From the NCBI RefSeq assembly GCF_028858535.1, contig NZ_JAPMOU010000047.1:1-38514 (forward strand): DNA of 38,514 nucleotides, given 5' to 3'. Position numbers and translations under genes: made by a program. Every line of letters starts with the position of its first letter. Positions within the stretch are counted from its first letter, which is position 1. The notes under the pieces were generated by a model. It searched no databases. It saw nothing but the letters and a program-made list of their open reading frames with translations, and was not told the origin of the DNA. Shown in pieces: positions 22,744-30,611 of the stretch. Origin of the DNA: Spartinivicinus poritis (GTDB taxonomy: Bacteria; Pseudomonadota; Gammaproteobacteria; Pseudomonadales; Zooshikellaceae).

Positions 22744-22781
22744 TGGGGGGAGAGTATGGAGCAATAGGGTATTTGTTCACC

Positions 22782-22815
22782 GTTCTTGAAGGGCCATCCA
22801 TGAACCCTCAAGAAC
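22782..22815 (+). terminator. Hairpin after the RmlD-like gene
   Basis: GTTCTTGAAGGG pairs with CCCTCAAGAAC, an 11-bp stem with one bulged A, followed by TAAAAAGG. It lies 39 bases after the stop codon. This is a candidate terminator without a good T-run. Confidence 0.4.
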
Positions 22816-22911
22816 TAAAAAGGCATCCATGCCTTAGTGACCAAACACTCTATTACTCCATACATTCAGATTTGGCGGCGATTGAAGGGTTATTAGGCTG
22901 CACAAATGCTG

Positions 22912-23018
22912 TTCCCCCCTTTGATAAAGGGGGGCTAGGGGGGATTTAGATGGACCAGAGTTATTGAGCCATCAGTGCTTTATTAACATGTAAAAATCCC
23001 CCTTTTTCAAAGGGGGAA
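22912..23018. repeat. Pair of inverted C/G-rich palindromic repeats (REP-like)
   Basis: CCCCCCTTTGATAAAGGGGGG (22914-22934 region) is a 9-bp stem with a 3-base loop, followed by CTAGGGGGGATTT. At 22992-23018, AAAAATCCCCC leads into CCCCCTTTTTCAAAGGGGG, an 8-bp stem. The two units face each other, so the whole region can fold as one long inverted repeat. Such dispersed elements are common in intergenic regions of several phyla. Here they lie between the RmlD-like gene and the 3' end of ompW. Confidence 0.75.
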
Positions 23019-23044
23019 GTTGGATTGAGCTATAGTTTAACTCT

Positions 23045-24404: not shown

Positions 24405-26642
24405 TTATTTGGCGACAGCTGCTTTTTCATTACTGTTGCTTACCTGGAACTGGTTGATAATGCCGTGAATCTCTCTAATTAATTCAGATAGTGATGAACT
24501 GGTTTGTTCCGTTTCATCTGCTCTTAAATTACCCTCTTTGGCTAAATGGTTAATTGTTGATAAGTCAGTTTCGATCGTATGAGTAACTTCTTTATAAGTA
24601 TTTAGTTGATTGCAACTTAATTGAGTGAGCTCAGTAATATTTTCAACATTATCTGAAATTCTATTTAATGATTCGCCCATTTGTTTTGCTTGATTAACAC
24701 TCGCACTGGCATTTTCTGCTCCTTGCTCCATTGCTTCTGCCGCTTTGATAGCCCCTGCCTGGATTTTATCGATCATTTGTTTTATTTGTTCAGTTGAGTT
24801 GGATGCTCGCTGGGCTAACTCTCTTACTTCTTCAGCTACCACAGCAAACCCTCGCCCATGCTCACCAGCACGAGCGGCTTCAATACTGGCATTTAATGCT
24901 AATAAGTTAGTTTGATCAGAAATGTCATTAATAGTGTCAGAAATTTGCGAGATTTCATTTGAGTCATTTTTTAATTGGTGAATAACTTCTGCTGCCTCAA
25001 TAACGTCATTGGATAAGGTTTCAATCGCATGAGTTGCCGAGTTAACAATGCTTCTATTTTGACTAGCTTCTTCGCATACCTTTAAAGTCCGCTCGTAAAT
25101 TTCATTAGCATATTCTGTCACTTGATTGGTCATATTTACCATTTCTTGTACAGTGCTTAATACTTTATCAGAATTATACGTTTGGTCTTTAGCTGATTGA
25201 TTCAGGCTTGCACAGGTGTTATTTAGTGACTCTCCCGTTTGGTTTAGTTTGGCTGATGCGCTATTAAGGTATTTTACTGTGTTGTAATAAGAGTCAACCA
25301 AGGTGTTAAATGCTTGGGCAATTTCACCTGCGTCGCTACCTTGCTCAAAAGGTACTCTTGTAGTGAGGTCACCTTCGCCACCTTCTGATTTAGGTAAAAT
25401 AGACTTCATGGCTTGTTTAATTTCAATTAAGCCTGTGGTGGTGCCATGTTCATAAACATTAAGACCCACTCTTTCTGCCTCTTCAGGCACACGCAGAAAT
25501 TTCATATAGCGCATAATGCCAAATAAAATAGCGCCGGTACCAAAGCCCCAGATAAATACGGCAATCACCCCTTGTGCTTGCACAAAAAATTGCTCCCAGC
25601 GATTGGCTATTGGTAATGCGCCATCAGCAGCAACAAAGGCTAATATGAGTGTGCCCCAGGCACCACAAAAACCATGCGAGGCTACCACGTTAACTGGGTC
25701 ATCAATTCTTAACCCTTTTACCATCCACCATTCAAAGCCATAGACTACGACACCAGCTGAAAGTCCAATAAACGCAGCCCCCATTGGATCAACAACTGCA
25801 CATCCTGCGGTAATGGCTACCAGGCCACCAATAATACCATTTAACAATCGAGCGATATAAATTTCTCCCCCATGTAAAAACAGTGAAATTAAAAAACTAG
25901 CCACACCACCTGCTGCTGCCGCCAATGATGTATTGAGAATGATTTTAGCGACATCAGGTGTGGCTTCTAATGTGCTTCCCCCATTAAAACCGAACCAGCC
26001 AAACCATAAAATCAATACACCTATCACAGCCATTACTTGGTTATGGCCTTGCATTCTTACGGTTCTGCCATCTGGATTAAAGCGGCCAAGCCTGGGACCT
26101 AAAATCCATGCGCCAGCCAGGCCTACCCAACCACCTAATGAATGAACGACAGTTGAACCAGCAAAATCAACCATATTTTTTTCAGCAAGCCAGCCACCTT
26201 CTCCCCAGATCCAATGGCCAGAAACGGGATAAATGAATGCACAAATAGCAATGGTAATAATCATGTAAGCAAGAAATCGGATTCGCTCGGCAACAGCGCC
26301 AGACACAATGGTAGCAGCGGTACCTGCAAAGGTGACTTGAAACATAAAAAAAGCAAAGTCCATGGGGGTATCTGCTTCTGATATGGCAAAGTTGCTACTA
26401 CCAAACCAACCACTGACGCTGTCACCAAACATTAGCGCAAAACCAACTAACCAAAATACCACGGTTGCAACCGTAAAGTCGGTGATGTTTTTAAGGGCTA
26501 CATTAATTGTATTTTTGGCACGGGTCAGCCCTGACTCTAAAGCAGCAAACCCGGCTTGCATAAGAAAAACTAAGGCAGCAGCGACCATTAGCCACAGAAT
26601 ATTAATCGTTTGCTGAAGCTCATTAAGTTCGGCGGTTGGCAT
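24405..26642 (-). CDS. Ammonium transporter fused to methyl-accepting chemotaxis domain, 745 aa
   Basis: Two modules in one frame. Residues 1-380 form an AmtB-type ammonium channel with about 11 helices: [18 protein letters not shown] at the start, [20 protein letters not shown] (101-120), the pore histidines His167 (TVVHSLGG) and His323 ([11 protein letters not shown]), and the gate-region Phe ([10 protein letters not shown]). Residues 383-400 ([18 protein letters not shown]) are the Amt C-terminal tail. Then a HAMP-like half ([20 protein letters not shown], 424-443) leads to a receptor signalling domain of about 270 residues. Its hairpin tip is at 566-600, with [20 protein letters not shown] and [15 protein letters not shown]; it would bind CheA and CheW. 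It is probably an ammonium receptor. No glnK is adjacent. The MTase gene lies 213 bases upstream on the same strand. Confidence 0.92.
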
Positions 26643-26780
26643 AATAATGTACTACTTTTTTACTAATGTGTTTCAAAGTAAATATAGGAAAGGAATCAAA
26701 TTATACAACCCAGCTTAGGGTTTATCGAAGTTGGAAACTGTTTATGATGGGAAGTAACTATATTTGCAACGTCTATTTCA

Positions 26781-26852
26781 GGGGTGGGTATAAAGCATAA
26801 TTGCCACCCCTTATATTAATTAGCAACTCAAGGCATTGAAAAAACAATGCCT
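26781..26852. terminator. Two hairpins between methyltransferase and amt-MCP gene
   Basis: GGGGTGG/CCACCCC (26781-26787 and 26804-26810) and AGGCATTG/CAATGCCT with an A6 loop (26831-26852). The second begins three bases after the methyltransferase stop on the minus strand. T-richness follows on the plus side only, so the direction of any termination is unclear. They suggest the two genes are separate transcripts. Confidence 0.45.
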
Positions 26853-28511: not shown

Positions 28512-30611
28512 ATGACACTTGCAGCTAATCGAAGTCGTTTTACGATTGAAGTTTCAGGGAGTCAGGAGCCATTAAGGGTTATTGGGTTTAAGGGGATTGA
28601 GGCATTATCGGACGTTTATGAGTTTGATGTTGTAGTGGCTTCAGAAAACCCTAACCTCGATACAACGGCTTTTATCAAACAAGCTGCAGCTTTAACCATT
28701 CAGGGGGAGACTAACCCTGGAGAAACAGATTCACGTTTCGTGCATGGCGAAATTTGTCTATTTCAGCAACAAGAAATTGGTAGAAAATTTCATACTTATA
28801 AAATAAGACTTGTACCAAAAATATGGTACTTGCAGCATCGTACTAACAGCCTTATTTTTCAGAATTTAACGGTACCTGATATTATTAAGCAGATGCTTGA
28901 AACTGCGCAAATATCGGGTCAGCACTATCAGTTTAGGCTGACAACCAATTATTCTCCACGTATCTATTGCGTCCAACACCAGGAAACTGATTACCAGTTT
29001 ATCTGTCGTTTAATGCGTGAAGAAGGGATGCATTTTCATTTTGAGCATGACGCTGGTGGCCATAAATTGATCATTGGTGATAATAAGCCAGCCTTTCCTC
29101 AATTAAGTAAAGCGTTGGATTATTACCCTGTTTCTGGCATGGTGCCAGAACAAGATACACTTTACCGGTTATCTTTTAAACGCAAGGCTGGGGTGGGTAA
29201 AGTAGTATTACAGGACTTTAACTTTGAACAACCAGGGTTAAATCTGGCGGTTAATCAAGCAGAAAAACAGCAACAGGCATTAGAGCATTATCACTACCCG
29301 GGAGAGTATGATCTACCTGCTAATGGTGAAAGCCGTGCTAAGCTACAATTGCAGGCATTGCAAGCAGCTCAACGGGAAGTCACTGGGCAGACAAATGCCC
29401 CGCGATTAACAGCTGGTCATCGTATAACAGTGCAACAGCACCCAGTTAAAAAATTAAATCAGGATTATTTGCTGGTTAAAGTTGAACATATTGGCAGACA
29501 GCCACAATCATTAGAGGAAGAAGCGAATGGTAAAGGTTGCCAATATAATAATAGTGTTGTTGCATTACCAAGTGAAATACCATTTCGTAGCCAGGTTGAT
29601 AAAAAAGTTAATCAAATAGCTCATCAGCCTAAAGGCATTCAAACGGCTGTTGTTACAGGTCCAGGGGGGGAAGAAATTTATACAAACGCCCATGGCCAAA
29701 TAAAAGTACAGTATCAATGGGATCGACAAGGGCAATTAAACGAAAACAGCTCTTGTTGGATTAGGGTGGCACAGAACTGGACTGGCCCTCAGTGGGGAAG
29801 TTTAGTTTTGCCCAGAGTGGGCCAAGAGATAATGTTAGATTTTATTAATAGTAACCCCAGTCAACCGATTGTTGCTGGTAGACTATATAATAAACTACAA
29901 CCTGTTCCGTACAAATTACCCATCAATAAAACCCGTACCACCTTAAAAAGCCAAAGCAGTCTTGGAGGTGAAGGTTTTAATGAAATTCGCTTCGAAGATA
30001 AAAAAGGACAAGAGCAGGTTTTTATCCATGGTGAGAAAGAGCTGGATTGGCATGTAAAAAATGAGCAACGAGAGCAAGTAAAATGTAACCGGCATTTAAT
30101 TACCCATGCAGCCCGTTACGAACAGATAAAATCAGAGCAGCATGTGGTGATTAACATGGCAAAACATCTGCAAATAGCTCAATCACAACACCAAACGGTG
30201 GGAAATAATTATCAATTAACCACAGCGACTGCACACTTAGAACAGTTTGGCCAAGAAGCTCATTTAAAAAGTGGGATGAAAATTATTATCGAGGCCGGTA
30301 GTCAAGCCATCTTAAAAGTAGGGGGCGCATTTATTACCCTAGGTAGTGATGGAATAAAAGTACAAGGCCCTTTAGTTCGGTTAAATAGTGGTGGCTCGGC
30401 GAGTAGTGGCTCAGCTATTTCACCTACGTCTGCAATGGCAGCACTGCAGGCTGCTACTGATATTGCGGGTAAAGTGACAGCAGCATTAACCGCAGCCCCC
30501 TCTCAAATGGATAAATTAAATTTTCCTGCATTATGTTCGGGGCAGTTGAATAAAGGCCGTAAAAATGACGCTGCTTTTTGTGAGCAATGTGAACAGGGAG
30601 CAGATAAATAA
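28512..30611 (+). CDS. vgrG: Type VI secretion tip protein VgrG (orphan)
   Basis: The spike protein of the type VI secretion system, 699 residues. The N-terminal gp27-like part (RFTIEVSGSQEPLRVIGFKG, YICRLMREEGMHFHFEHDAG) covers about 1-370. The gp5-like OB domain follows at about 385-470 (NAHGQIKVQYQWDRQGQLNE, then SCWIRVAQNWTGPQWGSLVL and PRVGQEIMLDFINSNPSQPI). The remainder is the needle repeat and a DUF2345-like end (KIIIEAGSQAILKVGGAFIT) with a short Cys-containing tail. GAAGGAAC precedes the start by about 10 bases. No baseplate, sheath or ClpV genes are in the window, so this is an accessory vgrG island. It is followed by an adaptor and an Rhs effector, all on one strand. Confidence 0.93.
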   Translation: MTLAANRSRFTIEVSGSQEPLRVIGFKGIEALSDVYEFDVVVASENPNLDTTAFIKQAAALTIQGETNPGETDSRFVHGEICLFQQQEIGRKFHTYKIRLVPKIWYLQHRTNSLIFQNLTVPDIIKQMLETAQISGQHYQFRLTTNYSPRIYCVQHQETDYQFICRLMREEGMHFHFEHDAGGHKLIIGDNKPAFPQLSKALDYYPVSGMVPEQDTLYRLSFKRKAGVGKVVLQDFNFEQPGLNLAVNQAEKQQQALEHYHYPGEYDLPANGESRAKLQLQALQAAQREVTGQTNAPRLTAGHRITVQQHPVKKLNQDYLLVKVEHIGRQPQSLEEEANGKGCQYNNSVVALPSEIPFRSQVDKKVNQIAHQPKGIQTAVVTGPGGEEIYTNAHGQIKVQYQWDRQGQLNENSSCWIRVAQNWTGPQWGSLVLPRVGQEIMLDFINSNPSQPIVAGRLYNKLQPVPYKLPINKTRTTLKSQSSLGGEGFNEIRFEDKKGQEQVFIHGEKELDWHVKNEQREQVKCNRHLITHAARYEQIKSEQHVVINMAKHLQIAQSQHQTVGNNYQLTTATAHLEQFGQEAHLKSGMKIIIEAGSQAILKVGGAFITLGSDGIKVQGPLVRLNSGGSASSGSAISPTSAMAALQAATDIAGKVTAALTAAPSQMDKLNFPALCSGQLNKGRKNDAAFCEQCEQGADK

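Follow-up and report, generated by a model that had tools for sequence, protein, structure and literature searches.

Does one gene of the gammaproteobacterium Spartinivicinus poritis really encode an ammonium channel (Amt) and a chemoreceptor output on the same chain, and what would such a protein sense and report? The gene lies in a stretch of 38,514 nucleotides (contig NZ_JAPMOU010000047.1 of assembly GCF_028858535.1), which was analyzed as a whole and is called the window here. The initial annotation had proposed that a single frame joins a complete AmtB-like channel to the cytoplasmic domain of a methyl-accepting chemotaxis protein (MCP), with the pore histidines His167 and His323 and the receptor tip intact, and all of this was confirmed. 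The frame is open without interruption for 745 codons from its ATG (Table 1). Pfam matched Ammonium_transp (PF00909) to residues 16-402 (E 4e-117, profile positions 1-397 of 399) and MCPsignal to residues 541-687 (E 4e-37). Besides H167 and H323, the alignment contained the Phe gate F105/F219, W146, which pairs with W144 of Ks-Amt5, and the S1 residue S223, and these six residues were invariant in 8/8 Amt-MCP proteins compared. The conserved MCP tip was present as well, with its invariant positions between residues 571 and 609. A join of two genes by a frameshift or by sequencing, which the initial annotation had also considered, was excluded, and an assembly artefact of this kind has a practically negligible probability. 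Nothing was found in favour of an artefact. The same 745-aa protein is encoded at the same locus in the separate assembly of a congener (G002), and other bacteria also carry full-length fusions, including two cases on Roseobacter-group plasmids. We conclude that the Amt channel and the MCP signalling hairpin form a genuine fusion in a single protein.

Table 1. Features of the fusion gene and its upstream region, in window coordinates.
Feature	Position	Strand	Basis
Amt-MCP fusion gene, 745 aa	24405..26642	-	intact frame, Pfam domains, kept in G002
Amt/Mep/Rh channel domain, residues 16-402, 11 long helices in model	25437..26597	-	Pfam, AlphaFold2 model, Foldseek
Q29-E36 stretch; Q29 and E36 equivalent to Ks-Amt5 Q24 and E31	26535..26558	-	alignment; site from the available part of PMC5764959
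N52-D55 stretch; N52 and D55 equivalent to Ks-Amt5 N47 and D50	26478..26489	-	alignment
T111-S114 stretch; T111 and S114 equivalent to Ks-Amt5 T109 and T112	26301..26312	-	alignment
Pore histidine H167	26142..26144	-	alignment
Pore histidine H323	25674..25676	-	alignment
HAMP-like linker, residues ~401-455 (helix 404-415, connector 416-436, second helix from 437)	25278..25442	-	weak Pfam match, linker alignment, model
MCP signalling domain (Pfam MCPsignal, residues 541-687)	24582..25022	-	Pfam
Kinase-control tip region, residues 562-625, hairpin turn near E588	24768..24959	-	sequence comparison
Sigma-70-like promoter match (10/12) upstream of gene	26700..26728	-	match count of region no higher than in shuffles
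Hairpin between fusion gene and upstream methyltransferase-like gene	26831..26852		terminator-like score on + strand

We then considered how the two halves are connected. In the NCBIfam comparison, residues 401-734 aligned with residues 225-558 of the receptor CtpM with zero net gap, at a score far under the model cut-off, and residues 423-734 aligned with the Pseudomonas putida aromatic acid chemoreceptor 6s18 without a gap over 312 residues. Because the CtpM alignment opens at residue 401, the receptor part starts directly after the Amt tail. Receptors of the CtpM and 6s18 kind have an N-terminal part consisting of a periplasmic domain and two transmembrane helices. The window protein resembles them from the linker to V734 and differs from them in that an 11-helix channel takes the place of their N-terminal ligand-binding and membrane part.

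The linker itself gave a HAMP match, absent from the initial annotation, at residues 407-450, where it stayed below the Pfam threshold (19.8 bits versus a cut-off of 25). Among the 12 Amt-MCP proteins scanned, four had a HAMP match at E <=0.01 (the window protein, L026, L029 and L032) and none reached the cut-off. Similarly, two of eight kinase, cyclase or phosphatase fusions (L031 and L009) had a match, both under the cut-off. Across output types, the linker motif GLNxxEHGAxT...DLSxRVxVEPxTExGxIAxxYNxV turns up in varied versions, while the linkers of the Halanaerobiales Amt-MCP proteins differ from this GLNxxEHGAxT type. That several outputs have the motif in common suggests that one Amt-plus-linker unit has been recombined with different outputs.

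An AlphaFold2 model, built from 11 Amt-MCP sequences as one chain (mean pLDDT 77.5, pTM 0.54), ordered the protein into the Amt helices, a short helix (residues 404-415), a connector (416-436) and a long helical stretch (437-731), with pLDDT below 50 at residues 399-405 and 419-421. This predicted succession of helix, connector and helix, continued by a long helix, is what would be expected of a HAMP-like unit followed by a receptor hairpin. No periplasmic domain was seen in the model. Since the model is a single chain with a pTM of 0.54, the trimer lies beyond its reach. The top Foldseek match was Ks-Amt5 (PDB 6eu6; TM 0.93 by target length, 43% identity), followed by the OFF and ON states of Sd-Amt1 from Shewanella denitrificans (PDB 8qj3, 8qj4 and 8qpf, titled as a receptor) and then by AmtB. 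Sd-Amt1, the second-best structural match, is likewise a signalling Amt and has a similar linker motif. AmtB, which is controlled by PII (GlnK), has the channel fold in common with the window Amt.

Ks-Amt5, the Amt-histidine kinase of Candidatus Kuenenia stuttgartiensis, is an ammonium sensor by experiment, as laid out in the available part of its description (PMC5764959). According to this part, it holds two ammonium ions via Q24, E31, N47, D50, T51, T109 and T112, its pore is closed by F27, Y30 and F34, no efficient translocation was reported, and a typical HAMP is absent; combinations of Amt modules with further domains were already on record, for which Tremblay and Hallenbeck 2009 is cited there. 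In the window protein, five of the seven ligands are identical, T112 is conservatively replaced (S114) and T51 corresponds to F56. The equivalents of Q24, E31, N47, D50 and T109 were kept in 13/13 Amt-MCP rows, and that of T112 was a serine in 12/13. All six AmtB rows checked, from the clade of the genome's own AmtB, carried A, L and S where the window protein has Q29, D55 and T111. We nevertheless rejected the Ks-Amt5 site residues as a marker of the fusion: they are common in the stand-alone Amts sampled (Q29 in 51/69, D55 in 52/69), and the site thus marks a wider subfamily. The pore residues F27, Y30 and F34 of Ks-Amt5 correspond to F32, L35 and L39, so that two of the three bulky residues are replaced. 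Overall, the window protein is like Ks-Amt5 in having an Amt sensor and a signalling output on one chain and in keeping the residues of the pore and the greater part of its internal ammonium site. It is unlike Ks-Amt5 in that its output is an MCP hairpin and not a kinase, in that it has a HAMP-like linker, and in that T51 and two pore-blocking residues were not retained.

Counting fusions of the same architecture had been suggested in the initial annotation, and genome samples indeed held further full-length cases. We found 14 Amt-MCP proteins, those of the window and of G002 included, in Gammaproteobacteria, Alphaproteobacteria, a spirochaete MAG and Halanaerobiales; 13 of the 14 entered the residue and tree analyses, L135 being left out. 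With the full protein as query (E 1e-115 or better), at least 3 of 368 other genomes sampled from the class had an Amt-MCP, the remaining two class matches being an Amt-GGDEF and an Amt-kinase, as did at least 1 of 397 other genomes sampled from the phylum; both counts are lower bounds because the samples overlap and at most two candidates were scored per genome. Among 55 relatives, at least two had one (G002 and G051), the long Amt frames of G013 and G041 being left out of this count. Five of the best 80 loci in a scan of named genomes were Amt-MCP, from Vibrio sinus, Orenia metallireducens, a Methylobacterium MAG, a spirochaete MAG and Halonatronum saccharophilum. A plasmid scan returned six records covering at least 80% of the query. 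Three were classified by output, as Amt-MCP in Phaeobacter inhibens and Tritonibacter mobilis and as Amt-kinase on the Vibrio THAF191c plasmid; the other three, one more from Tritonibacter and two more from Vibrio, lie outside this classification. The architecture is rare in the sampled genomes, but not unique. The P. inhibens protein (L029 3932-6418), annotated merely as an ammonium transporter, is encoded next to recombinase and transposase genes on a plasmid typed as conjugative.

For the phylogeny we aligned 118 Amt rows, 13 of them MCP fusions, after exclusion of L016, of L001, which duplicates the window, and of rows whose Amt match was weak or short. The other outputs were sorted by regular expressions; the class "HK" obtained in this way included L084, an adenylate/guanylate cyclase fusion by Pfam, and L035, labelled REC/other, is a kinase-receiver, with the MCP labels affected in neither case. 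In the tree of 68 of the 118 rows, the window Amt and Ks-Amt5 fell into one clade of 35 rows (support 100/97), made up of fusions except for the stand-alone L097 and L011. Its outputs comprise 11 MCPs, kinases, GGDEF domains, Pelagibacter frames and a Leptospiraceae adenylate/guanylate cyclase. The window protein belongs to a group of four MCP rows whose sister is an Amt-GGDEF (L027), and the two Halanaerobiales Amt-MCP proteins lie outside the 35-row clade, beside a stand-alone Halanaerobium Amt (100/91). A single clade of all 13 MCP rows was rejected (p-AU 2e-6), and so was a single clade of the 11 others (p 0.0016), in tests whose MCP groups were picked after inspection of the tree. That the MCP rows are not one clade points to more than one origin; within the 35-row clade, non-monophyly is by itself also compatible with one origin followed by later replacements.

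Further Amt fusions were noted along the way. Five Amt frames of 705-761 aa from Pelagibacteraceae form a tight clade (L086 4887-7124 and 2315-4465, L077, L092 and L102), and in the one scanned, L086 4887-7124, a similar linker precedes a SpoIIE/PP2C phosphatase output (E 1e-27). In a Leptospiraceae MAG, L084 3464-5533 combines an Amt with an adenylate/guanylate cyclase domain. L065 4935-6677, the one Amt of its kind scanned, has a PII domain fused at its C terminus; similar Amts of 556-605 aa, mostly from Bacillota, are L063, L075, L096, L098 and L111.

We next compared the gene between congeners. The G002 protein is 90% identical and has the same gene order around it. At a dS above 1, which makes the values rough, dN/dS (NG86) was 0.043 overall, 0.038 for residues 1-400, 0.038 for residues 401-456 and 0.028 for residues 541-691, and YN00 gave 0.086 for residues 457-540. 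The channel, the linker and the tip are under strong purifying selection between congeners. The last 54 residues were the least conserved (74% identity, below the rest of the protein; dN/dS 0.042 by NG86 and 0.122 by YN00), and in the congener G001 both flanks match while approximately 24638-26595 of the window is missing and the remnant is out of frame. Both observations would suit a relic, or an ammonium channel that does not signal and whose receptor tail is decaying. However, the dN/dS of residues 541-691 is not above that of the channel, on which ground a relic was rejected, and the architecture occurs in more than one lineage. We therefore regard decay as very improbable; with intact copies in two of three congeners compared, a deletion in G001 explains its remnant most simply.

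Which machinery could the hairpin address? The genome has 19 MCPsignal matches above cut-off, window protein included, 15 CheW domains and four CheA-type systems: the flagellar one, a Pil-Chp-like cluster that includes a 2193-aa frame, and two more. The flagellar cluster encodes an SRP54-type GTPase (FlhF-like), a ParA-type ATPase (FlhG-like), a sigma factor (FliA-like), a CheY-like receiver, CheZ, CheA, CheB and CheW; no CheR was seen in the stretch of this cluster examined. We measured the hairpin in 14 of the 18 other receptors, leaving out the receptor of contig C27 and three receptors without a detectable tip motif. From the turn to the end there are 147 residues in 11 of these 14, and the window protein has the same 147 residues from the turn to V734, followed by 11 more, a hairpin that we take to be of the 40-heptad class. 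Receptors from two other Che clusters, lying at the second (L130) and within the third (L131, 10904-12433), also align with the window hairpin to their ends. Hairpin length was therefore discarded as a pathway indicator, and it does not single out the flagellar system.

It follows that an ammonium receptor feeding another chemosensory system, either Pil-Chp or one of the two further CheA clusters, and acting on surface motility or gene expression, deserves consideration. We find it rather unlikely: the four CheA-type systems and the matching receptors at two non-flagellar clusters speak for it, but 11 of 14 measurable receptors, which carry no pathway assignment, have this length, more than expected for minor pathways. 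Consensus CheR/CheB methylation sites, scored with what we assume to be the standard consensus, were absent from the window protein in both the strict and the relaxed form. This test is weak, because many control receptors lack sites too (the strict site in 8/14 and the relaxed site in 4/14 of the other receptors scored in the genome).

The surroundings of the gene were searched for further hints. None of the five neighbours scanned was a che, nitrogen or PII gene, and comparison of the start sequences by eye revealed no neighbour common to the gammaproteobacterial Amt-MCP loci. In Orenia metallireducens (L033 4908-12103), NifH-, PII-, PII- and two nitrogenase-type genes are found downstream of the Amt-MCP gene, and in Halonatronum the genes after the fusion encode glutamine synthetase, NAD synthase, an Amt and PII. 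These contexts tie Amt-MCP proteins to nitrogen, but in a separate Amt-MCP lineage. A sigma-54 pattern had 39 matches versus a shuffled mean of 52.9, with one three-mismatch match in the upstream region (+ strand, 26765), and a sigma-28 pattern had 22 matches versus 13.6 in shuffles, with none upstream of the gene. Elsewhere in the window, the intergenic repeat families at 22755-22865 and 22905-23037 have many matches in two congener genomes, and positions 28512-30611 hold a 699-aa frame, by eye a type VI secretion VgrG-like protein, followed by further frames on the same strand.

Elsewhere in the genome, a separate amtB lies beside a frame that is glnK-like by eye. A second signalling Amt, an Amt-PAS-histidine kinase of 832 aa (L003 1474-3972, contig C41), is encoded immediately after a response regulator that carries an HD domain (HD-GYP-like).

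Taken together, we hypothesize that the protein is probably an ammonium chemoreceptor, in which a whole Amt channel has been repurposed as the sensor and forms both the ligand-binding and the membrane part. By analogy with Ks-Amt5, ammonium in the vestibule and at the internal sites of the Amt would change the conformation of its conserved C-terminal tail. This tail continues into the short HAMP-like two-helix linker, which would relay the change to the long MCP hairpin, and the hairpin tip would control CheA through CheW. The likeliest partner would be the flagellar CheA beside the flhF-, flhG- and fliA-like genes, cheY, cheZ and cheB; we prefer it because it belongs to the flagellar system, hairpin length not separating the systems. 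The output would then be swimming towards or away from ammonium, and ammonium uptake would be left to the separate AmtB. We infer the ligand, the direction of the response, the choice of pathway and the driving of a two-fold receptor by a three-fold channel. The symmetry mismatch between a trimeric Amt and a dimeric receptor counts against the ammonium chemoreceptor, as do the missing consensus methylation sites, the scanned neighbours devoid of che and nitrogen genes, the flagellar stretch without a CheR, the phenylalanine at the T51 position and the broken gene of G001.

This modifies two proposals of the initial annotation. That the channel itself is the sensor is in agreement with the model, in which a periplasmic domain is missing, with the clade of Ks-Amt5 and with most of the site residues, and it leaves ammonium as the presumptive ligand. 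The coupling to swimming is in agreement with the flagellar CheYZABW cluster and the separate amtB; flagellar output is nevertheless one of four CheA-type options.

Alternatively, the protein could be a transceptor that still lets ammonium through and informs the chemotaxis machinery of flux instead of binding, in which case cells would sense their own uptake. The intact pore residues and the substitution of the Ks-Amt5 pore blockers Y30 and F34 by L35 and L39 would be compatible with conduction. However, the genome has a separate AmtB, and the clade and most site residues are as in Ks-Amt5, which is not efficient at translocation according to the available part of PMC5764959, and we consider a transceptor rather unlikely.

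A literature search limited to open-licence papers returned no description of an Amt-MCP fusion. The article by Tremblay and Hallenbeck from 2009 reportedly concerns Amt as a sensor and may mention receptors. No Amt-MCP fusion is described in the available parts of PMC5764959, PMC10433425, PMC12918730, PMC6978683 and PMC8534201.

More broadly, and with chances that we consider evenly balanced, these proteins may constitute a class of chemoreceptors that has a trimeric transport channel as its ligand-binding module and has arisen at least twice. In such a class, an odd-fold sensor would drive an even-fold array, and cells would track ammonium by channel occupancy or flux. For example, a trimer of receptor dimers could draw its six chains from two Amt trimers; alternatively, Amt trimers could build a lattice by bridging three dimers. 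Should the protein act as we propose, one could test whether the signal of a channel comes from binding or from flux, how chemoreceptor arrays accommodate three-fold together with two-fold symmetry, and by which route a single unit of Amt and linker became able to drive receptor, kinase, cyclase and phosphatase outputs.
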